Positions 16,106 through 25,983 of a stretch of 64,000 nt of DNA are shown here, piece by piece. Made by a program: the position numbers and the translations under genes. This DNA is from Betaproteobacteria bacterium SCN2 (GTDB lineage Bacteria > Pseudomonadota > Gammaproteobacteria > Burkholderiales > Thiobacillaceae), in NCBI GenBank assembly GCA_008923285.1, contig WBSG01000003.1, forward strand, positions 62,001 through 126,000. Reading direction: 5' to 3'. The notes under the pieces were generated by a model that was given only the letters and a program-made list of their open reading frames with translations, did not search any database and was not told the origin of the DNA. Each line of letters begins with the position of its first letter. The first letter of the stretch is position 1.

Positions 16106-16351
16106 TCAGATGCGCTGGTCCGACTGCGTCCACACATCCCCCACCGTCTGAACCTCGAGCAGGCCGTGGAGCATGAGCAGTTCCGCGCCGACATCGGCCG
16201 GGAATCCCTGGCGTCCGCCGCGCTGGTCGTAAATCAGACTTTCCAGGTAGGCGGTGCAGCCGGCTTTGCCCCAGCATTCGCAAAGCGCCTGTGCGATGCG
16301 CGGGAATTTTTCCTCGAGGGCCGATCGGCCGGACTCGTCGCTGGCGTCCAT
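16106..16351 (-). CDS. Small conserved-looking protein of the flagellar operon, function unknown
   Basis: 81-residue acidic-to-neutral protein without signal peptide or membrane segment. It has F-P-R-I-A-Q-A-L-C near residue 16, a C-W-G-K-A-G-C pair of cysteines near 25-31, and an R-Q-G-F-P-A-D-V segment near 47. It begins 19 nt after the fliA stop on the same strand and ends base-to-base against the copA stop, so it is likely the last gene of the flhB-fliA operon. I recognise the general look of short uncharacterised betaproteobacterial proteins with an R-x-G-F-P motif but cannot assign a function. No strong Shine-Dalgarno precedes the ATG. Confidence 0.65.
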   Translation of the reverse strand: MDASDESGRSALEEKFPRIAQALCECWGKAGCTAYLESLIYDQRGGRQGFPADVGAELLMLHGLLEVQTVGDVWTQSDQRI

Positions 16352-16370: not shown

Positions 16371-17096
16371 TCAGGACTTCCAGGGCTTCATCTTGGCGCG
16401 AAGCCGCGCCACTGCCTGGGAATGCAACTGGCAGATGCGCGATTCGGAAACGCCCATCACCGCGCCGATTTCCTTGAGGTTCATGTCCTGCTCGTAGTAC
16501 ATGCCCATCAGGTTCTTCTCGCGCTCGGGCAAGTCTTCGATGGCCTGGATCAGCCCCTTGCGGAAGCCGTCGTCTTCCAGCAGCGAAAGCGGATCGGACA
16601 CATCGTCGACCAGGTAGCGCTCGAGAAAATCGCTGCTTTCCTCGTCGGAAAAATCCTCGTAATACAGCAACTGGTTGCCTTTGACGTCGCCCAGCATGCT
16701 CTGGTAGTCGGCGAGGGAGATGCCCATTTCCGCCGAAATTTCCAGTTCGGTCGGCGGCCGCCCGTGGCGCTGGGCCAGCTTGTTGATGGCGCTCTCGATC
16801 TGGCGCGACTTCTGGCGGATATGACGCGGCAGCCAGTCGGCATCGCGCAGGTCGTCAAGCATGGCGCCGCGGATTCTCTGCGTGGCATAGGATTCGAATT
16901 GAGCCCCCTGACTGCCGTCGAAGCGGCTCACCGCATCCATCAGGCCGATCAGGCCGACCTGAATGAGATCGTCTACTTCGACACTGGCCGGCAGCCGCGC
17001 CATCATGTGATAGGCAATGCGTTTCACCAGCGGCAGGTACTGCCGGATTACATCATCGTTGGTAGACTTCTTCTGCACTGTTGCTACAGCCCCCAT
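16371..17096 (-). CDS. fliA: RNA polymerase sigma-28 factor for flagellar class III genes
   Basis: 241-residue sigma factor that directs transcription of late flagellar and chemotaxis genes. Region 2 (V-K-R-I-A-Y-H-M-M-A-R-L-P and D-L-I-Q-V-G-L-I-G-L-M-D-A), region 3 (A-T-Q-R-I-R-G-A-M-L-D-D-L-R) and a region 4 helix-turn-helix (L-K-E-I-G-A-V-M-G-V-S-E-S-R-I-C-Q) are all present. I chose the start at 17096: GAAGGTGG precedes it and the length matches E. coli FliA (239). This start overlaps the end of the FlhG-like gene by 44 nt. An in-frame ATG at 17138 would add 14 residues. Confidence 0.96.
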   Translation of the reverse strand: MGAVATVQKKSTNDDVIRQYLPLVKRIAYHMMARLPASVEVDDLIQVGLIGLMDAVSRFDGSQGAQFESYATQRIRGAMLDDLRDADWLPRHIRQKSRQIESAINKLAQRHGRPPTELEISAEMGISLADYQSMLGDVKGNQLLYYEDFSDEESSDFLERYLVDDVSDPLSLLEDDGFRKGLIQAIEDLPEREKNLMGMYYEQDMNLKEIGAVMGVSESRICQLHSQAVARLRAKMKPWKS

Positions 17097-17799
17097 GCGC
17101 CACCTTCGGTTGGTCGTTTTGCATGATTCTAGACACAACCCATGTCAAATTGGGCCCGATAGTTAATGTGTTACTTGAAGTTTCTGGTCTTCTGTTGTCA
17201 ATTTGACACACTTCTGCCCTGGCCTGGCAGACCTCTGCAGTCTGGTTCAGGAAATGTCTGGTTGCCCGCGCTGCCCGATCCGCCGTTTCTCCCAGGAACA
17301 ACAGGCGGGACGGCGATGGCGTGGCGGCCAGGGCCTTGGCCAGCGCATAGCCAGCCTCGGCATCCCGCTTTCCAAGCAGGACGACGAGGGTTTGCGGTGT
17401 GAAGCGGTCGAGCGGCGCCCTGGTCGTGGTGAAGCGTCCGCCGTCGAACAGCAGAAAGCCGCAAGCACGACTGTCTCCGGCCGCCCGCACCAGCGCTGCA
17501 TCGCCCGCCAGCACGCCGGGCGCGTGAATCAGCCCGCAGGCGCCTGCGCGGATGACCTGCCGCGACAGGGCCAAATCCGCACGCCAGGGCAGCAACGGAC
17601 GACAGCCGAGCCTGTCGGCAATCCTGCCTGCCACCGCATCCACCAGCCAGACCGGCCGGCCATCTTCGCGCGACAGGCGGTTTGCCAGCGCCTGGGCGAA
17701 CTCACCTTCATCCGCGGCCGTGGGACCGGCCAACACGCTGACGACGCGCGTGCCCTGACTCGAAAACAGCCGCCGCAAGCCCTGCGCCTGGTGCGGCAT
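17053..17799 (-). CDS. flhG: FlhG/FleN-like MinD-family protein without a P-loop
   Basis: 248-residue protein in the flhG position between flhF and fliA. The N-terminal H-Q-A-Q-G-L-R-R-L-F (residues 3-12) matches the Q-A-x-x-L-R helix by which FlhG stimulates the FlhF GTPase. Where MinD/FlhG proteins have K-G-G-V-G-K-T, this one has A-G-P-T-A-A-D-E-G (24-32): the Walker A lysines and the GKT are gone. The later V-W-L-V-D-A segment still resembles the switch strand. It overlaps flhF by 1 nt and fliA by 44 nt. FlhG normally limits flagellar number; this copy probably cannot hydrolyse ATP. Identity rests on position and the N-terminal motif. Confidence 0.8.
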   Translation of the reverse strand: MPHQAQGLRRLFSSQGTRVVSVLAGPTAADEGEFAQALANRLSREDGRPVWLVDAVAGRIADRLGCRPLLPWRADLALSRQVIRAGACGLIHAPGVLAGDAALVRAAGDSRACGFLLFDGGRFTTTRAPLDRFTPQTLVVLLGKRDAEAGYALAKALAATPSPSRLLFLGETADRAARATRHFLNQTAEVCQARAEVCQIDNRRPETSSNTLTIGPNLTWVVSRIMQNDQPKVAHGGCSNSAEEVYQR

Positions 17800-18941
17800 C
17801 AGGCGCTCCGCTTCAAGGCGTCCTGCTCCGCTTCAAGGCCGGCGTACGCCGCCCAGTCTTCTTCGCGCATGACAAAACTGCCGCTGTCGCGGGCACGCAA
17901 TGCCCGGTCGATGACATAGCCCGCATTGGCGGCATGCATATCCTCCGGCACTCGCTGGCCGGTCGACAGGCAGCTCAATTCCAGGCGATAGCGCATCAGG
18001 CAATCCAGCACCGCGCCGCACAAGCCGCCTTCGTCGAGCTTGGTGATGATCGCGCCGGCGAAAGATGGGGTTCCCTGCATGAAACGCTCGGCCAGACTGC
18101 CCTGGGCGCTGGCTGCCAGCGTCAGCAGGCAGGTGGCGCCAGCCTGCCCGAGTGCCGCCATCTGCATGGAAAAGCGTTCGTCGCCGGGGGCGAAGCCGGC
18201 ACTGTCCACCATGACGCAGGTCTTGGCTTTCAGCCCGGCCAGCGCTTCGCCCAAGCGACCCGCATCATCGAGGCCAAGGAAATCCACCCCCATCATGCGC
18301 GCATAGGCTTCCAGCTGAGCCTGCGCACCTATGCGATAGGCATCGACCGAAACCAGAGCGACCTTTTCCGGGCCGTGGCGCAGGGCAGCCCTGGCGGCAA
18401 GCTTGGCCAGGGTGGTGGTCTTGCCGTGCCCGGTCGGGCCGACCAGCGCCCACACGCCGGGGCGCATGCCGGGCATGTCTTCGGCCGTGGCCGTGCGCAG
18501 GTTGCGGATCAGCACCTGGCGCATCCAGGCATCGGCCTGCTCGGCGCTATAGCGCCTGGGCAGCCCGGCTGCGAGATGGCGCGCCAACCGCGGGCTGAAA
18601 CCGGCGGCCAGCATTTTCTGCAGCACGTGCACGCGCACCGGATGGCGGCGCTTTTCCGCCGACCAGGCAAAGCCGGCCAGCTGGTTGGCGAGCAGGGCCC
18701 GCAGGCGCGCCAGTTCGCGCCAGACCAGGCCGCCGTCTTCCGTCTGGCGCTCGCTGACCGAAGTCTCCTGGGCGGCAGTCTCCTGCCTGCCGCCTTCCAG
18801 TTCGTCGTAGCGGCCGGCCATGAATTCCACGCCGCCTGGCGCCTTGCGCGAAGTCACCACGACTGCGTCGGGGCCGAGCTCCCGGCGGATCTGCTCCAGG
18901 GCGGAACGCGCGTCAGGCGCCAGAAATCTGCGCAGCTTCAT
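17799..18941 (-). CDS. flhF: Flagellar biosynthesis SRP-type GTPase FlhF
   Basis: About 380 residues. The B domain starts M-K-L-R-R-F-L-A-P-D-A-R and has the R-R-E-L-G-P-D-A-V-V-V block. It is followed by the N-G GTPase domain with Walker A G-P-T-G-H-G-K-T-T-T at 168-177 (His where Val is usual), the D-A-Y-R-I-G-A-x-x-Q-L motif, and T-K-L-D-E-G. FlhF positions the polar flagellum by recruiting FliF. I chose ATG 18941 because family members start at M-x-x-x-R-F; an ATG at 18953 lies directly against the GGAGG. The gene overlaps the flhA 3' end by 29 nt, and its stop overlaps the next start by 1 nt. Confidence 0.93.
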   Translation of the reverse strand: MKLRRFLAPDARSALEQIRRELGPDAVVVTSRKAPGGVEFMAGRYDELEGGRQETAAQETSVSERQTEDGGLVWRELARLRALLANQLAGFAWSAEKRRHPVRVHVLQKMLAAGFSPRLARHLAAGLPRRYSAEQADAWMRQVLIRNLRTATAEDMPGMRPGVWALVGPTGHGKTTTLAKLAARAALRHGPEKVALVSVDAYRIGAQAQLEAYARMMGVDFLGLDDAGRLGEALAGLKAKTCVMVDSAGFAPGDERFSMQMAALGQAGATCLLTLAASAQGSLAERFMQGTPSFAGAIITKLDEGGLCGAVLDCLMRYRLELSCLSTGQRVPEDMHAANAGYVIDRALRARDSGSFVMREEDWAAYAGLEAEQDALKRSA

Positions 18942-21012
18942 GTTCCTGCTCATCCTCCATGTCCATCAGGCTAGTGATCTGCAAGGACTTGTCCGCCGGG
19001 ATTTCGGCATACGACAGCACCGGCAGCCCGGTACGCCGCAGCATCCTTGCCAGCGGCGCGCGCAGCGCCGGTGCGACCAGCAGCACCAGCGCCCCGCCCC
19101 GCTCCAGCTGGCGCGCCATGGCGCGCTCGGCCACGAGCGGCAGGGCCTCGACCAGTTCGGGCGACAACATGGCCTCGCCCTCCTCCCCCATTTCGGCAAT
19201 CAGCTGGCTCTCCAACTTGGGCGACAACCCGATCACATACAGGGTTTCGGCGCCCTCGAACAGGCGGTCGACGATGTTCCGGCCGAGCGAGGCGCGCACC
19301 GTCTCCGTCAGCTCATCGATGTCCTGGGCGCGGCTCGCGCGCGCAGCCAGGGTTTCCAGAATGCTGCGCGTGTCGCGGATGGAAACCCCCTCGGTCACCA
19401 GGTTCTGCAGGATCGCCTGCACCGAGGTAAGCGGCAGCAGGCGCGGCGTCACCTCCTCCACCAGGCCAGGCGTGGCGGTGTTGACGCTGTCGAGCAGCTG
19501 CTGCACCTCGGTGCGGCCCAGCAGTTCACCGGCATGCGCGCGGTAGACCGCCTCGACATGGCGCGCGATCACGTGGCTGGCGTCGATCACCCGATAGCCG
19601 CGCATGAGCGCCCGTTCGCGCTCCTCCGGCTCGATCCAGATGCCGGGCGCGCCAGTGAGCGGATCGATGCCGGGGTCGCCCTTCAGCCGGCCCAGCATGT
19701 CGGCAGCCTCGATGGCCAGCAGCAATTCCGGATAAGCCTCGCCGCTGGCTGCCTCGACGCCCTTGAGGCTGATGCGGTAACTCGTCGGCCGCAGCTCCAT
19801 GTTGTCGCGCACCCTGACCGGCGGCACCACCAGGCCCATTTCCAGGGCAAAACGCAGGCGGCCTTCGGTGATGAGCTTGAGCGCCTGGCCGCCCTGCTTG
19901 CGGTCGAGCAGCGGAATCATGCGGTAGCCGACTTCCAGCCCCAGCACATCGACCGGCGGCAGGTCGGACCAGGTCAGTTCGGTAAGTGGCTCGATCTCTT
20001 CTTCCTCCGGTTCCGCCGTGAAGGCTTCGCGATTGCGCAGGCGCTGTTCGACGAACCAGGCCGTGGCGGCAAGGATCGCCGCCAGCAGCAGAAAGGCCGT
20101 ATGCGGCATGCCGGGAATGATACCCAGCACCGCCAGCACCGAGGCCGCCACGTAGAGGATCTGCGGGCGCCCGAACAGCTGGAGCATGAATTCACGGTTG
20201 AGATCCTGCTCGTTCGAGGTGCGCGACACCACGATGCCCGCGGCGGTGGAGATTACCAGCGCGGGAATCTGCGCCACCAGGCCGTCGCCCACGGTCAGCA
20301 GCGCGTAGCGGTCGAGCGCCTCGGCGAGCCCCATGCCGTGCTGGAACATGCCCACCGCGATGCCGCCGACCAGGTTGATGACGAGGATGATGAGCGCCGC
20401 CACGGCATCGCCGCGCACGAACTTGGACGCGCCGTCCATGGCGCCGTAGAAATCCGCTTCGCGCGCGACATCGGCACGCTGCCTGCGCGCCTCCTGCTCG
20501 CCAATGGCGCCGCTGGCGAGGTCTGCATCGATGGCAAGCTGCTTGCCCGGCATGGCGTCGAGGGTGAAGCGCGCCGCCACTTCGGCAATGCGGCCCGCGC
20601 CGCGCGTGATGACCACGAAATTGATGATGACCAAGATCACGAACACCACCAAGCCCACAGTGTAGTTGCCGGCGACAAGGAAATTGCCGAAGGATTCGAT
20701 CACCTTGCCGGCAGAGTCGGTGCCGGTATGACCCTCGACGAGGATGATGCGGGTGGAGGCGACATTGAGCGCGAGCCGCATCAGCGTGGTCACCAGCAGC
20801 ACGGTGGGAAACACGGAAAAATCCAGCGGGCGGCCCGCGTTGAGGGCAACCAGCAGCACGATCACCGCCAGTGCGATGTTGAGGGTAAACAGCATGTCCA
20901 GCATGAATGCCGGCAGCGGCAGCACCATCATCGCCAGGATCAGCAGCACCAGCAGGGCGCCGGCCAGATGCACCAGGCTGCGGCCGCGCGCCATGGCCAG
21001 CTGCGTGCTCAT
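18913..21012 (-). CDS. flhA: Flagellar export gate protein FlhA
   Basis: 699-residue core of the flagellar type III export gate. About eight transmembrane segments occupy the first 330 residues, followed by a large cytoplasmic domain that forms the nonameric ring. The FHIPEP region is present (R-G-A-G-R-I-A-E-V-A-A-R-F-T-L-D-A-M-P-G-K-Q at about 145-166), as is the cytoplasmic R-x-x-L-x-V-L-S-Y-x-E-I-P block near the C terminus (L-P-V-L-S-Y-A-E-I-P). The start overlaps the flhB stop (ATGA). Length and motifs are normal, in contrast to the shortened partner FlhB. Confidence 0.97.
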   Translation of the reverse strand: MSTQLAMARGRSLVHLAGALLVLLILAMMVLPLPAFMLDMLFTLNIALAVIVLLVALNAGRPLDFSVFPTVLLVTTLMRLALNVASTRIILVEGHTGTDSAGKVIESFGNFLVAGNYTVGLVVFVILVIINFVVITRGAGRIAEVAARFTLDAMPGKQLAIDADLASGAIGEQEARRQRADVAREADFYGAMDGASKFVRGDAVAALIILVINLVGGIAVGMFQHGMGLAEALDRYALLTVGDGLVAQIPALVISTAAGIVVSRTSNEQDLNREFMLQLFGRPQILYVAASVLAVLGIIPGMPHTAFLLLAAILAATAWFVEQRLRNREAFTAEPEEEEIEPLTELTWSDLPPVDVLGLEVGYRMIPLLDRKQGGQALKLITEGRLRFALEMGLVVPPVRVRDNMELRPTSYRISLKGVEAASGEAYPELLLAIEAADMLGRLKGDPGIDPLTGAPGIWIEPEERERALMRGYRVIDASHVIARHVEAVYRAHAGELLGRTEVQQLLDSVNTATPGLVEEVTPRLLPLTSVQAILQNLVTEGVSIRDTRSILETLAARASRAQDIDELTETVRASLGRNIVDRLFEGAETLYVIGLSPKLESQLIAEMGEEGEAMLSPELVEALPLVAERAMARQLERGGALVLLVAPALRAPLARMLRRTGLPVLSYAEIPADKSLQITSLMDMEDEQEHEAAQISGA

Positions 21013-21764
21013 TCAGCCCGCTCCAGGCGCATGGCTTGCCGGCGCGCACGGATGCGCGCCTTGAGCTCCGGGCTGCCCTCGGCCTCGCGCGCCTCGGCCA
21101 GCACTTCGGCACGGGTCATGGCGAGATTCCTCAGATGGCGCCACCATTGCCACGGCACATCGAGCAGCGCCGCCAGCAGCATGGCGGCGAGCAGCAGCAA
21201 GAAGCCTTGCGCCAGCACGCCCGCGGCGGTGGCCACCGCCTGCGGCAGCGGCTGGGCCGGCAGGCCGGCCAGGGCGTCGAGATTCATGCGGTAGAAAACA
21301 AACAGCAGCAGCGCCAGCAAGGCGATTTTCGCCACGGCCTTGAAAGCCTCGAACAGGCCGCCTGCGGAAAACAGGCGGGAAACCGTGTGCAACGGATTCA
21401 GACGCTCGCCGCGAAACCGCACAACCGCGGGCGCGAATACCCAGCCGGAAAGCAGCAGGGGCGCGGCCAGGGCGGCGACAAAGACGGCAGCCAGGAACGG
21501 AAGGATTTCGACGGCGCTCTGCTGCACCAATAGCAAGGCGGACTGCGGAGGCAGTTGCGCGGCCTGGCTGAAGTGTTCGGCGAACAGCTGTTGCAGGCGG
21601 CCGAAGAGCTGCGCGCCCCAGATCAACAGGGCCGCCGTCATCGCCCCCACAACCAGCAGCGCCGACAGCTCGGCCGAACGGGGAACCCGCCCCTCCGCCC
21701 TGGCCTGGTCCCGGCGCTTCTCGCTGGCAGGTTCGGTACGGGAATAATCGCTTTCCTCGGCCAT
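21009..21764 (-). CDS. flhB: FlhB lacking the C-terminal autocleavage domain
   Basis: 251 residues against about 350-385 for normal FlhB. The N-terminal membrane domain is intact: E-K-R-R-D-Q-A-R-A-E-G-R-V-P-R-S near residues 15-30, four hydrophobic segments near 34-53, 83-106, 141-158 and 181-203, and the linker M-T-R-A-E-V-L-A-E-A-R-E-A-E-G-S. It then ends at R-L-E-R-A-E. The N-P-T-H self-cleaving substrate-specificity domain that should follow is absent, and flhA begins at once in an ATGA overlap, so there is no shifted remnant. The missing domain may be encoded elsewhere (an FlhX-like gene) or lost. A rarer alternative, an error deletion in assembly, is unlikely given the clean junction. 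Confidence 0.9.
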   Translation of the reverse strand: MAEESDYSRTEPASEKRRDQARAEGRVPRSAELSALLVVGAMTAALLIWGAQLFGRLQQLFAEHFSQAAQLPPQSALLLVQQSAVEILPFLAAVFVAALAAPLLLSGWVFAPAVVRFRGERLNPLHTVSRLFSAGGLFEAFKAVAKIALLALLLFVFYRMNLDALAGLPAQPLPQAVATAAGVLAQGFLLLLAAMLLAALLDVPWQWWRHLRNLAMTRAEVLAEAREAEGSPELKARIRARRQAMRLERAE

Positions 21765-21954: not shown

Positions 21955-22299
21955 ATGATCGAACCCGTCGATCTGGCGGATTTCTTCGTCACATTCTTTT
22001 CCGCGGCCATGGTCATCATCTGCGGCGGGCTTTATGCCCTGCTGTTCGCGTTCGCGCGCGTGAAAAACGCCCCGCGCCTGATGCCGCTGGCCTACACCGC
22101 CTACCTCGGCCTGGCGATTTCTGCGGTCATGCTCGCCAACGCCGCCAACCTGTTCAACAGTACGTTCTGGACCGTCGTCGTCCTGCTCATGCTCTTCGGT
22201 TATCTGCTGGCGCCGCATGGCATCTGGCATCTTTGCGTTCGCACGCACGAACACGAAGACGAAGAAGCACCCGAAACCCCAAAGATTTTTCAACCCTGA
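21955..22299 (+). CDS. Small membrane protein leading the nor operon
   Basis: 114 residues with three hydrophobic segments (about 10-33, 45-65 and 72-90) and a charged, His/Glu-rich tail (H-L-C-V-R-T-H-E-H-E-D-E-E). It has a strong AGGAGG ribosome site and starts the operon 12 nt before norC, directly behind the FNR/DNR-type promoter. Its three-helix shape recalls small accessory subunits of heme-copper oxidase-like complexes, but I do not recognise a named family. A role in assembly or stability of the nitric oxide reductase is an inference from position only. Confidence 0.8.
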   Translation: MIEPVDLADFFVTFFSAAMVIICGGLYALLFAFARVKNAPRLMPLAYTAYLGLAISAVMLANAANLFNSTFWTVVVLLMLFGYLLAPHGIWHLCVRTHEHEDEEAPETPKIFQP

Positions 22300-22311
22300 G
22301 GAGCAAGCACC

Positions 22312-22920
22312 ATGACAACCGAAGCCTGGTGGGCATCCCCGTCACTCTGGCGCAAAACCGCAGTATGGATCACAGGCGGTTCGTTCGTGATCCTCGTCTT
22401 CCTCACTTTCGACACGATGGCCTACATCTCGGCCGGCGGCAAGCAGGTGCCGGGCTATTCCATCATCAACCAGCGCGTCGATTACCAGTATGACGACGAG
22501 AAGAAGCGCTACCTGCCGGTGATCGGCCCGGAAGAGCCGCTCTTCGGCAAGATGCTCACCGAGGAGGAAGCCAAGGCCCTGGTCAGCAAGGGCAAGCTCA
22601 CCACCCAGGCCAAGAACTGCATGCAATGCCATACCCTGCTCGGCAACGGCGCCTACTACGCCCCCGATCTCACCAAGGCCTGGCTCGACCCGTGGTGGGG
22701 CAACAAGGAAATCCGCGAGCAGCAGATGGTGGATTTCCTGATGAACCCGCAGGACCGCCTGCACAATGCGCTCGGCCGCAGAATGCCCAACCTCAACATT
22801 ACCGAGGAAGAGGCGCGGGCGACGGTGGCCTTCCTCAAGTGGATGAGCGCCATCAACACGCTGGGCTTCCCCCACAACTTCAAGGCGATAGATCAGTCCG
22901 CCGCCTCTGCCCAACAATAA
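22312..22920 (+). CDS. norC: Nitric oxide reductase cytochrome c subunit
   Basis: 202-residue membrane-anchored monoheme cytochrome c that passes electrons to NorB. One N-terminal membrane anchor spans about residues 16-33, and the heme-binding C-M-Q-C-H is at 103-107, followed by T-L-L-G-N-G-A-Y-Y-A-P-D-L-T, a signature shared with NorC and the cytochrome-like region of quinol NORs. An M-P-N-L-N-I segment supplies a likely axial Met. It is somewhat longer than the usual 150-residue NorC because of an insert before the heme site. It has a GAGGAGCAA ribosome site and is followed 10 nt later by norB. Confidence 0.95.
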   Translation: MTTEAWWASPSLWRKTAVWITGGSFVILVFLTFDTMAYISAGGKQVPGYSIINQRVDYQYDDEKKRYLPVIGPEEPLFGKMLTEEEAKALVSKGKLTTQAKNCMQCHTLLGNGAYYAPDLTKAWLDPWWGNKEIREQQMVDFLMNPQDRLHNALGRRMPNLNITEEEARATVAFLKWMSAINTLGFPHNFKAIDQSAASAQQ

Positions 22921-22930
22921 GGAGATTGAC

Positions 22931-24385
22931 ATGGCTGCTCTGGGTGTTTTCGACACTGCCAATCTGAACAGCGGACAGAAGCTGGCGATGAAATATTTCG
23001 CCGTTGCGCTGCCGCTGTTCGGCGCGCAAATACTGTTCGGCCTGCTGGCCGGATTGCAGTACCTGATTCCCGATTTCCTGTTCCAGGTCCTCGACTTCTC
23101 GGTCAACCGCACCGTCCACCTCAACGCCATGATCGTCTGGATGCTGTACGGCTTCATCGGCGGCGTGTACTGGATGCTGGAAGACGAAGCCCAGCATCCG
23201 GTGGTCGGCCTGTGGCTCGGCAAGCTGATCTTCTGGATCCTGACCATCGCCGTGGCCATCGTCGTACTGGTCTACCTGCTGATCCAGATCGGCCCAGCCG
23301 AGATGTCGACAATCTGGTTCATCATGGAAGGCCGCGAGTACATCGAGGCGCCGCGCTGGGCCGACATCGGCATCGTGGTGTCGGTGCTGGTGTTCTTCTT
23401 CAACGTCGCCGCCACCTTCTCCAAGGGTCGTTACACCGGCATCGGCGGCGTGCTGGTCCTGGACCTGCTGGCCCTGTTCGGCATCTACCTCGCCGGCATG
23501 TTCTACACGCCCAACATCTCCGTCGACCAGTTCTGGTGGTGGTGGGTGATCCACCTGTGGGTGGAAGCCACCTGGGAAGTGCTGGTGGGCTGCATCATGG
23601 CCTACATGCTCATACAGACCCTCGGCGTGCGCCGCAAGATCGTCGAGACCTGGCTCTACATCGAAGTCGCGCTGATGTTCGGCTCCGGCATTCTCGGCCT
23701 CGGCCACCACTACTTCTGGATCGGCACCCCGCAATACTGGCTGACCATCGGCGGCTTCTTCTCCGCCCTCGAGCCCATCCCGCTGGTGGCCATGGTGGTG
23801 CATGCGGTGTTCGACTCCGGCGTGCACAAGCTCAGGAACAGCAACCATCCAGCCCTGGCGTGGACCATCGGCCAGGCCGCCGGCAACTTCTTCGGCGCCG
23901 GCGTGTGGGGCTTCATGCACACCCTGCCGCAGATCAACCTCTACACCCACGGCACCCAGTGGACCGCTTCGCACGGCCACCTCGCCTTCTTCGGCGCCTA
24001 CTCCACCGCGGTGATCGCCTTCTTCTACCTGGCGGCGCAGAAATCGCGCGGCAATGTGTGGATGAGCGGCAACATCGTCGGCGGCTGGAAATGGAAATGG
24101 TCAATGGCCTTCCTGTGGATCGGCATGATCGGCATGACCATGGCGCTGCTGATCGCGGGCTACGAGCAGTCGCAGATCGAACGCGCGGTCGGCGGCTCGA
24201 CCTGGATGGCCTACTTCGAGGCGCAGTCGCATCCCTGGTTCATGCAGGCGATGACCTGGCGGCAGATATCCGGCTACATCTTCGGCCTCGGCTATATCCT
24301 GCTGGTATGGGACCTGCTGACCATCGGCAAGCGCGAAACCCGCTCCGTGAGCGAGTTGCATGCCGAACAGCCACAGCCGGCCTGA
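22931..24385 (+). CDS. norB: Nitric oxide reductase catalytic subunit
   Basis: 484-residue heme-copper oxidase-family subunit with about twelve membrane segments, which reduces 2 NO to N2O and water. Ligand and glutamate motifs of cNOR are conserved: H-L-W-V-E-A-T-W-E, G-L-G-H-H-Y-F-W-I-G, S-A-L-E-P-I-P and H-G-T-Q-W-T-A-S-H-G-H. It lacks the N-terminal cytochrome-like fusion of quinol-dependent NOR, consistent with the separate norC upstream. norQ and norD, the usual activation genes, are not in the window. A very strong hairpin (24395-24423) lies 9 nt after the stop. Confidence 0.97.
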   Translation: MAALGVFDTANLNSGQKLAMKYFAVALPLFGAQILFGLLAGLQYLIPDFLFQVLDFSVNRTVHLNAMIVWMLYGFIGGVYWMLEDEAQHPVVGLWLGKLIFWILTIAVAIVVLVYLLIQIGPAEMSTIWFIMEGREYIEAPRWADIGIVVSVLVFFFNVAATFSKGRYTGIGGVLVLDLLALFGIYLAGMFYTPNISVDQFWWWWVIHLWVEATWEVLVGCIMAYMLIQTLGVRRKIVETWLYIEVALMFGSGILGLGHHYFWIGTPQYWLTIGGFFSALEPIPLVAMVVHAVFDSGVHKLRNSNHPALAWTIGQAAGNFFGAGVWGFMHTLPQINLYTHGTQWTASHGHLAFFGAYSTAVIAFFYLAAQKSRGNVWMSGNIVGGWKWKWSMAFLWIGMIGMTMALLIAGYEQSQIERAVGGSTWMAYFEAQSHPWFMQAMTWRQISGYIFGLGYILLVWDLLTIGKRETRSVSELHAEQPQPA

Positions 24386-24780: not shown

Positions 24781-25983
24781 ATGGCGCTGATCCAGTTGGA
24801 AGAAACCCGGAATGGCAAGTCGCCCGGCGGCTTTGCCCTGTTCGCTCTCGGCTTCAGGCCATTTTTCCTTGCTTCGGGCCTGTTCGCAGTGATCTACATG
24901 GCCACCTGGCTTGCCGCCCTGCAAGGCGCCATGCCGACGCCCGCCGGGATAGCGCCGACCACCTGGCACGGCCACGAAATGCTGTTCGGCTACGCGGCGG
25001 GCGTCATCGGCGGCTTCCTGCTGACCGCGGCGCAGAACTGGACCAGCATTCCCATGCCCAAGGGCCGTACGCTCGCCATGCTGCTCGTGCTGTGGCTGGC
25101 CGGGCGCGTGCTGCCCTGGTTCACGGTGCCCTACGCTGCCATCGCCATCGTCGACCTGCTGTTCCTGCCGGCGCTGCTGGTGGCCGTACTGCGCCCGGTA
25201 CTGCGGGTGCAGCAGACGCGCAATTACCCCTTTCCTTTCATGCTGCTCGGCCTGACCGCGGCCAACGCCCTGTTCCACGCCGGCGCCCTCGGTTTCGACC
25301 CTGCCTATACCATGCTCGGACTCGACCTGGCGCTGTACCTCATCGTGCTGATGATGGTGGTGATGGGCGGCCGCGTCATCCCGTATTTCACCGAGCGGCG
25401 CCTCAACTCGACCGCGAAAAAGTGGGTGCCGATCGAATGGCTGGCCTCCGCCACGACCCTGGCCGTGCTGGCCGCAGTGCTTGCCGCGCCGGCGCTGTTC
25501 TCCGGCATGCTGCTTGCATTCCTGGCCGCGGCGGCAGCCATCGTGCATGCCATCCGTCTTGCCGGCTGGCATGACAAACGCCTCTGGCGCGTGCCGCTGC
25601 TGTGGGTCCTGCACCTGGGCTACGGCTGGATCGTCATCGGCTTCCTCCTCGATGCCCTCTACGCCGCGGGCATGGTGCCACCCTTCCTCGCCCTGCACGC
25701 CTATGCCGCAGGCGGCATCGGCGTGCTGACCCTGGGCATGATGGCGCGGGTTTCGCTCGGCCACACCGGCCGCATCCTGGAAGCCCCCGCCATCATGACC
25801 TGGGCTTTCGTGCTCGTGAACTTGTCTGCCGCCCTGCGGGTGTTCGGCCCGCTGCTCCTGCCTGCGCAGACGACCATGCTGCCGCATGCAAGCGGTGCGC
25901 TGTGGATGGCGGCATTCGCCTTGTTCGCCGTTGTCTATGCCCCCATGCTCTGGCGTCCGAGGGTGGACGGCAAACCGGGCTGA
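24781..25983 (+). CDS. nnrS: NnrS family heme/copper membrane protein
   Basis: 400 residues with about twelve hydrophobic segments. The N-terminal F-R-P-F-F-L and W-H-G-H-E-M-L-F-G-Y-A motifs, the A-Q-N-W-T block and the G-G-R-V-I-P-Y-F-T-E-R motif are NnrS hallmarks. NnrS proteins bind heme and relieve NO stress, including protection against iron-NO complexes; their exact reaction is unknown. The gene lies just after the nor terminator. The ATG at 24781 lacks an obvious Shine-Dalgarno, and I see no FNR box in the 42 nt between terminator and start. Confidence 0.93.
   Translation: MALIQLEETRNGKSPGGFALFALGFRPFFLASGLFAVIYMATWLAALQGAMPTPAGIAPTTWHGHEMLFGYAAGVIGGFLLTAAQNWTSIPMPKGRTLAMLLVLWLAGRVLPWFTVPYAAIAIVDLLFLPALLVAVLRPVLRVQQTRNYPFPFMLLGLTAANALFHAGALGFDPAYTMLGLDLALYLIVLMMVVMGGRVIPYFTERRLNSTAKKWVPIEWLASATTLAVLAAVLAAPALFSGMLLAFLAAAAAIVHAIRLAGWHDKRLWRVPLLWVLHLGYGWIVIGFLLDALYAAGMVPPFLALHAYAAGGIGVLTLGMMARVSLGHTGRILEAPAIMTWAFVLVNLSAALRVFGPLLLPAQTTMLPHASGALWMAAFALFAVVYAPMLWRPRVDGKPG

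Follow-up and report, generated by a model that had tools for sequence, protein, structure and literature searches.

What is a flagellar export gate for if its FlhB lacks the domain that switches substrates? This question is raised by the flhB gene of Betaproteobacteria bacterium SCN2, a member of the Thiobacillaceae, which lies within the 64,000-nucleotide stretch of DNA analysed here (hereafter, the window). The gene (21009..21764, minus strand) encodes 251 amino acids that comprise the four-helix membrane domain of the FlhB family (PF01312/TIGR00328) and the linker helix, without the C-terminal N-P-T-H domain responsible for autocleavage and switching. The PF01312 match covers positions 2-243 of 335 (E 4.6e-59), and the TIGR00328 score, 162.8 bits, is under the cut-off of 349.25. 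In the alignment with full-length relatives, the final residue comes 12 positions ahead of their cleavage Asn, by ungapped count from the shared A-R-I-R motif (the aligner had placed the last three residues elsewhere); by ungapped count, too, the stop falls at position 258 in Salmonella numbering (N269; cited passages of PMC13344023). The flhA reading frame starts at 21012, so that the two genes overlap in ATGA. Thus, the open reading frame, the PF01312 range, and the alignment bear out the preliminary description of a 251-residue FlhB that stops before the N-P-T-H domain at a precise junction with flhA. In the structural model (mean pLDDT 68.4, pTM 0.43, 24 sequences), long helices at 30-67, 74-105, 134-160, and 173-214 are followed by a final helix at 232-250, and the top-ranking PDB entry is 6s3l, the FliPQR-FlhB complex, through its FlhB chain (E 1.4e-3, prob 1.00). 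In Thiobacillus, the end of the short FlhB is conserved as (D/N)EV(I/V)G; we considered and dropped this as a new motif, given that its codons resemble, by eye, the flhA ribosome-binding site (GAGGTGAT), and treat it as translational coupling.

The missing domain could, in principle, be encoded elsewhere, either in a separate FlhX-like protein that completes a split FlhB, as the preliminary description had suggested, or in a second, intact flhB. A PF01312 search of the genome (99.86% complete, 27 contigs) at E<=10 detected neither: the window gene is the sole real match, and the other one (6.6 bits) covers positions 66-109, outside the C-terminal domain. This negative result is informative because the same model detects C-terminal-only, FlhX-type matches, with E values of 8e-20 to 9e-14, in 26 of 41 genomes. 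The very existence of such matches in relatives speaks for a split FlhB, as does one assembly (G008) that has a short FlhB and an FlhX without a full FlhB; however, a full-length FlhB accompanies FlhX in 25 of the 26 FlhX genomes, and G008 retains rod-type proteins, FliK, and FliM/N, which makes an assembly gap the likelier explanation there. Within the SCN2 genome, only the missing 0.14% could encode a second part. A split FlhB, or an overlooked second copy, is therefore scarcely conceivable.

As to whether close relatives share the short FlhB, they do: it is present in at least 56 of 117 Thiobacillaceae genomes, which, among the matches listed, all belong to genera g1, g6, and g12, that is, to Thiobacillus (g6, the genus holding T. 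thioparus) and two other genera. A scan of 62 named loci, mostly from Thiobacillus and related MAGs and including T. thioparus DSM 505 (L091) and T. denitrificans RG (L080), yielded an uninterrupted FlhB of 248-304 amino acids without NPT in 59 cases, so the truncation is not an accident of assembly. The three others are a 5'-cut gene that also stops short (L124), one that runs off its contig (L119), and a full-length FlhB of 379 amino acids with NPT (L115). Likewise, we reject the possibility that the domain was missed through assembly, since many relatives and several absent families, discussed below, agree.

The dN/dS values, for four pairs each from g1 and g6, are 0.14-0.30 for FlhB, 0.07-0.17 for FlhA, and 0.02-0.10 for FliA, compared with 0.08-0.18 and 0.15-0.26 for the neighbouring genes dapA and bamC, respectively; values for FliJ, FliO, and FliQ in g1 and for single pairs of FliI, FliG, FliP, and c23 were left out because stop-to-stop frames take in sequence beyond the gene and distort them. 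These ratios indicate that the short FlhB and the genes retained with it are under purifying selection. Many flagellar genes are missing and the FliF of one genome (L136) looks frameshifted, as could be expected if the remnants of a lost flagellum were in decay; yet, with the short FlhB uninterrupted in those 59 loci, dN/dS low at synonymous distances of about 0.4-1.0, and the gene set identical throughout three genera, decay appears very unlikely. The idea that the flagellum is losing function thus finds no footing: no flagellum was found that could be lost, and the remaining genes are under purifying selection. The suggestion that this lineage regulates export differently holds in spirit, given that relatives share a conserved short FlhB, so that, of the interpretations initially offered, this one stands and those of a split FlhB and of functional loss do not.

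The short FlhB often occurs beside a second system with a full-length FlhB. Among the matches listed, most g6 genomes have three PF01312 matches, which in G023 are a full FlhB, a short FlhB, and an FlhX. Because FliM/FliN matches number exactly two in each of the 89 positive genomes, the short system has no FliM/FliN pair of its own where both systems occur. Among the matches listed, at least 12 genomes (G000, 2, 3, 5, 6, 7, 13, 82, 101, 116, 117, and 126) have the short form only and no FliM/FliN match.

What accompanies the short FlhB is recognizably flagellar. The window gene order, all on the minus strand, is flhB-flhA-flhF-(flhG-like)-fliA plus a gene for 81 amino acids. FlhA (18913..21012, 699 amino acids) is full length (PF00771 positions 1-655 of 657) and scores 803.7 bits against the flagellar model TIGR01398 (cut-off 772.1) versus 583.5 against SctV (cut-off 692.25). 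FlhF (17799..18953) is an SRP-type GTPase (TIGR03499, 219.1 bits, cut-off 174.15) with an intact P-loop, GPTGHGKT. The gene in the flhG position (17053..17799) encodes a degenerate ParA-like protein without the P-loop pattern and with zero Pfam matches at E<=0.001; it groups with FlhG of full systems, its name resting on position and cross-locus homology. The sigma-28 gene fliA (16371..17138) passes the cut-offs of PRK06986 and FliA_WhiG, and its product is 92-95% identical in four within-genus pairs, with dN/dS of 0.06-0.10; the annotated TTG start, which overlaps the preceding gene, is probably too early. The 81-amino-acid gene 3' of fliA (16106..16351) adjoins it only in the genus of SCN2, among the loci examined; the model of its product is helical (mean pLDDT 76.6), and no family was found for it.

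Another contig (C3) carries fliF-G-H-I-J, an unknown gene of 157 codons, fliO-P-Q, three unrelated genes, fliR, dapA, and bamC. The unknown gene, whose product is about 155 amino acids long across short systems, occupies the place of fliK-L-M-N; in hhalign comparisons, nothing significant identified it as a remnant of FliM, FliN, FliK, or FliL (ten other sets likewise), a 21-column FliM-like stretch at E 0.65 being only a hint. Thus, the flagellar type III export set is present, namely FliPQR, FlhA, the FlhB membrane domain, FliHIJ, and FliO. FlhA, FlhF, FliP, FliF, and FliA all pass flagellar cut-offs, as in the case of FliP, with 232.4 bits against a flagellar cut-off of 217.45 compared to 162.9 for SctR (cut-off 208.6); against the EscR subfamily model, FliP reaches 177.3, just under the cut-off of 179. 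FliG scores 180.6 with the flagellar model, under the cut-off of 226.7. The injectisome models matched by FlhA, FliP, and FliF all remain under their own cut-offs, and with FlhA and FliP scoring higher against flagellar models, this is not an Sct-type injectisome core.

By contrast with the standard flagellum that the preliminary description had assumed, the SCN2 genome gave no match at E<=0.001 to PF00460, which we take to be the family common to rod and hook proteins, to flagellin (PF00669), to FliK (PF02120), or to FliM/FliN (PF01052). Each of these models matches flagellated relatives in the same searches, with 17 of 25, 16 of 25, 32 of 41, and 89 of 117 genomes positive, respectively. In the examined stretches, FliE homologues were found only in the two full-flagellum query stretches and in none of the short-system ones. 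All four families are absent also from G003, G005, G006, G007, and G013 (FliM/N is counted as absent from G013 because this genome is not among the 89 positive ones), whereas G002 lacks FliK, flagellin, and FliM/N and has two PF00460 matches, both on one contig together with a different FlgM, in an assembly with an estimated contamination of 4%. Thus, Thiobacillaceae possess a conserved, rodless, flagellar-type export apparatus that consists of FliFGHIJ, the unknown protein of about 155 amino acids, FliOPQR, the clipped FlhB, FlhA, FlhF, the degenerate FlhG, and FliA, has no FliK, FliM, FliN, PF00460-type rod/hook protein, or flagellin of its own, and is kept alongside FlgM.

The retained components themselves show signs of remodelling. 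In flagella, the tail of FliF binds FliG; this tail is recognisable in 17 of 19 short systems, being absent in L136 and divergent in L145. The EHPQ motif of FliG is absent from all 6 g6 genomes and kept in 2 of 3 g1 genomes, and in all nine the torque helix has lost its charged pair. The FlhG-like protein has no P-loop in any of 16 short systems, in contrast to both full systems, whereas the FlhF P-loop is present in all 18 (16/16 short, 2/2 full). The beta-collar of FliF is missing from all 19 short systems, with 2-12 residues in place of the 72 and 75 of two full FliF proteins; in Salmonella, according to the cited passages, the collar contacts FlgB and FliE (PMC11481574).

Retention of the FlhF P-loop and the FliF tail would also suit a membrane platform that does not secrete, or secretes differently, with FlhF-FliF-FliG and the export gate serving as a landmark or controlling another surface structure, e.g., type IV pili. 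As the cited passages have it, Lysobacter enzymogenes OH11, which has no flagella, requires flhA, flhB, fliI, and fliR for twitching, keeps its FT3SS genes, and exports introduced flagellin (PMC7277350). However, FliHIJ, FlgM, and FliA, all kept in Thiobacillaceae, would be superfluous for a pure scaffold, the dN/dS of FliA and FliI is low, and, in contrast to the operon arrangement in Thiobacillaceae, the FT3SS genes of Lysobacter are not grouped into an operon in that account. We therefore consider a platform rather unlikely.

FlgM inhibits sigma-28 and is exported by flagella; here, it would have FliA as its partner. In SCN2, FlgM is encoded on contig C11 (103 amino acids; PF04316, E 1.2e-10), with a sigma-28-like site, TAAAGTTT-N11-GCCGAAAA, 46 nt upstream. 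Among the 26 genomes searched, FlgM was detected in 11 of the 12 short-only genomes (the exception, G005, is 81% complete), G002 having two, one of the other type; two copies occur in all 8 genomes with at least two FliP (G001, 4, 8, 19, 23, 42, 80, and 85) and also in G041, one in G009, G010, and G020, and none in the 2 FlhB-less genomes. The FlgM of the short system is a distinct paralogue, with a basic end in g1 and g6 and a tail of RKRPRK in T. thioparus DSM 505. In 16 of 19 loci, the flgM of the short system is preceded, at a distance of 40-57 nt, by a sigma-28-like site, versus 0.37 expected from shuffles, by a pattern loosened after inspection of the sites; allowing at most two mismatches to the plain consensus leaves 8 of 19 loci with a site. 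A genome-wide sigma-28 pattern showed no excess (9 hits versus 9 in the control), and a stricter pattern found 2 sites, before flgM and flaF, versus 5 in the control, in 401 kb of SCN2 sequence, part of which was chosen because it bears flgM. Hence, we reject a sigma-28 regulon defined by genome-wide pattern.

Two of the nine genome-wide sites stand 46 nt before genes of the flagellar late class, namely flgM and a flaF-family gene (PF07309, E 3.2e-13; one genome), the distance for the latter being counted to a GTG taken as the start. A gene for a protein of 72 amino acids follows flaF, and a search of viral contigs for FlaF relatives returned none. Given that, according to the cited passages, Caulobacter FlaF acts as a secretion chaperone for flagellin (PMC7591256), the sigma-28-like putative promoter of this gene could point to export of an unrecognised structural protein chaperoned by FlaF, for example the 72-amino-acid protein or something filament-like and too diverged for PF00669, a model that gives weak scores (E 1e-12 to 2e-16) to the flagellins of several related genera. 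However, the SCN2 genome gave neither a flagellin nor a PF00460 rod/hook-type match at E<=0.001, and FlaF is known here from one genome only, so that this explanation seems unlikely.

The reading that we favour, with a probability falling just short of even, is that an ancestral flagellum was reduced to an export gate permanently in the late mode, acting on FlgM and perhaps on a FlaF client. The precedent comes from Salmonella, as described in the cited passages (PMC13344023): when the cleaved domain of FlhB and Fluke are both lost, export is locked in the late mode. With Fluke lost, a stop at FlhB position 258, which is one selected mutation, or deletion of 270-383 allows FlgM-Bla to be exported in the absence of rod-hook and of FliK, and the hook protein fusion FlgE-Bla is no longer exported once the domain is lost. 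Here, too, the cleaved domain and FliK are gone and an flgM gene is present. We infer a late-mode gate from the joint absence of the domain, FliK, rod-type proteins, and the collar, together with the presence of FlhA, FliA, and FlgM. With FlhB ending where the late-locked mutant does, the gate would offer no docking site to rod and hook substrates and would be open to late substrates docking on FlhA; since there is no rod, exported proteins should arrive in the periplasm. As substrates, we predict mainly FlgM and perhaps also a FlaF client. The export machine would then set the amount of free sigma-28 and so couple a sigma switch to secretion in a system that has no flagellum. A weak point of this reading is that Fluke by itself keeps late export blocked in Salmonella even after loss of the domain; in addition, export in that strain needed raised expression of the basal body, and the strain kept FliE, which is said to activate the FliP pore (PMC13344023, cited passages).

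Where did the apparatus come from? The dapA-bamC pair lies 3' of the short fli operon in 22 of 23 stretches (in the remaining one, L143, the contig runs out) and also 3' of the complete fli operon in all five relatives that lack the short system (L129, L131-L134), whereas in all five stretches with a full fli operon from genomes that also have short-system genes (L125-L128, L130), the pair is not found there. In a tree of 40 FlhA+FlhB sequences (G012_full and G027_ord were dropped for short FlhA), the short clade and the family's own flagella each receive support of 100; the full flagella of G001, G004, and G023, likewise with support of 100, are placed among other families of the order, and the grouping of the short systems with the family's own, vertically inherited flagella reaches only 46. 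The shared fliR-dapA-bamC locus, rather than the weakly supported grouping in the tree, leads us to infer descent of the short system from the family's old flagellum and the gain of another flagellum by many species. A more tentative extension, which we regard as a possibility rather than an expectation, is that FlgM export frees sigma-28 for non-motility genes, the ancestral flagellum having been recast for this role while a second one was acquired in many species.

A literature search of partial coverage found no description of a short-FlhB system in Thiobacillaceae. Export genes kept without a flagellum are, as such, of an already known kind: in Lysobacter enzymogenes OH11, flagellar export genes are likewise retained and their function has been shown (PMC7277350, PMC9927559), although there they form no operon and, in the cited passages, neither truncation of FlhB nor loss of the FliF collar nor FlgM is mentioned. 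A hat-like structure of the inner membrane is similarly linked to the fT3SS, separate from the flagellum, and unchanged in C. jejuni delta-flhBc (PMC9380563); however, according to the cited passages, its periplasmic component is not FliF and no genes are assigned to it, so that any link is speculative. The non-flagellar, secretin-less T3SS of Myxococcales are described in the same source as exporting, in all likelihood, across the inner membrane only (PMC9380563), but the FlhA, FliP, and FliF of Thiobacillaceae pass flagellar rather than injectisome cut-offs. What is new here is the truncation of both FlhB and FliF, the link with FlgM, and the coexistence with a second flagellar system.

The closest parallel is with the Salmonella flhB-deltaCCD flk mutants, in which the cleaved domain of FlhB is also gone, with an equivalent selected stop by our count, rod-hook and FliK are dispensable, and FlgM is the substrate read out. 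These mutants were made in the laboratory within a full flagellar system that kept FliE, and Fluke was also removed (PMC13344023, cited passages), whereas the Thiobacillaceae system is natural, conserved, and without FliM/FliN. It thus represents a natural, long-conserved counterpart of the mutants on which those passages base the argument that export is switched by removing the cleaved domain of FlhB, with a flagellar type III gate retained in three genera without a known structure to build, and it bears on the reduction of flagella to simpler export machines. Furthermore, in T. thioparus DSM 505, the short system stands beside one with a full-length FlhB, FliK, and FliM/FliN, so that the presence of both in at least one cultured species makes a separate function directly testable.

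Most short FlhB proteins of Thiobacillus, i.e., those without the C-terminal autocleavage and switch domain (loci L070-L123), terminate in (D/N)EV(I/V)G, preceded by a tail of variable length, such that the whole protein spans about 251-302 aa. This ending is probably explained by the fact that its codons carry the ribosome-binding site of flhA. In the window, flhB is adjoined by plus-strand genes identified by eye as NorC/NorB-like, i.e., nitric oxide reductase (21955-24385), with an NnrS-like membrane protein gene, also recognized by eye, in the same neighborhood and on the same strand (24781-25983). A Pfam scan of positions 21955-22299, part of the NorC/NorB-like stretch, produced no match.

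In the short fli operon of the SCN2 genome (L052), the fliK-L-M-N position is occupied by a gene for an unknown protein of approximately 155 aa (17371-17844). This rapidly evolving protein, most versions of which contain a WLxxRxGG-like stretch, is found at the same position in 22 of the 23 short fli stretches; the L061 stretch is cut, and two matches in the genus g12 are weak. Three genes lie between fliQ and fliR (L052:13298-15706), and at least two of these have relatives at the same place in G001 and G003. Judging by eye alone, the three SCN2 genes encode a small protein that looks periplasmic, another that resembles cytochromes, and an oxidoreductase resembling flavocytochromes.

On the minus strand of another SCN2 contig, C22 (L161:862-1511), a FlaF-family gene preceded by a sigma-28-like promoter is followed by a gene for a basic protein of 72 aa that has no family assignment and may be an exported client.

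The short-system FliF of G080 (L136) is matched in two frames, of 394 and 262 aa, possibly reflecting a frameshift that splits off the C-terminal tail. G008 (L037, L043, L125) encodes a short FlhB, FlhX, FliK, rod-type proteins, and FliM/N; full-length FlhB was not found in this assembly, probably owing to an assembly gap. In the related genome G020, the flhB-flhA region (L042) seems to be in pieces and no match to FliP was detected, so that this genome might represent real flagellar decay and serve as a comparison case. Finally, in alignments of full-length FlhB from related genera (G009, G010, G011, and G016; loci L018, L009, L021, and L011), the cleavage site is N-P-L-H rather than N-P-T-H.
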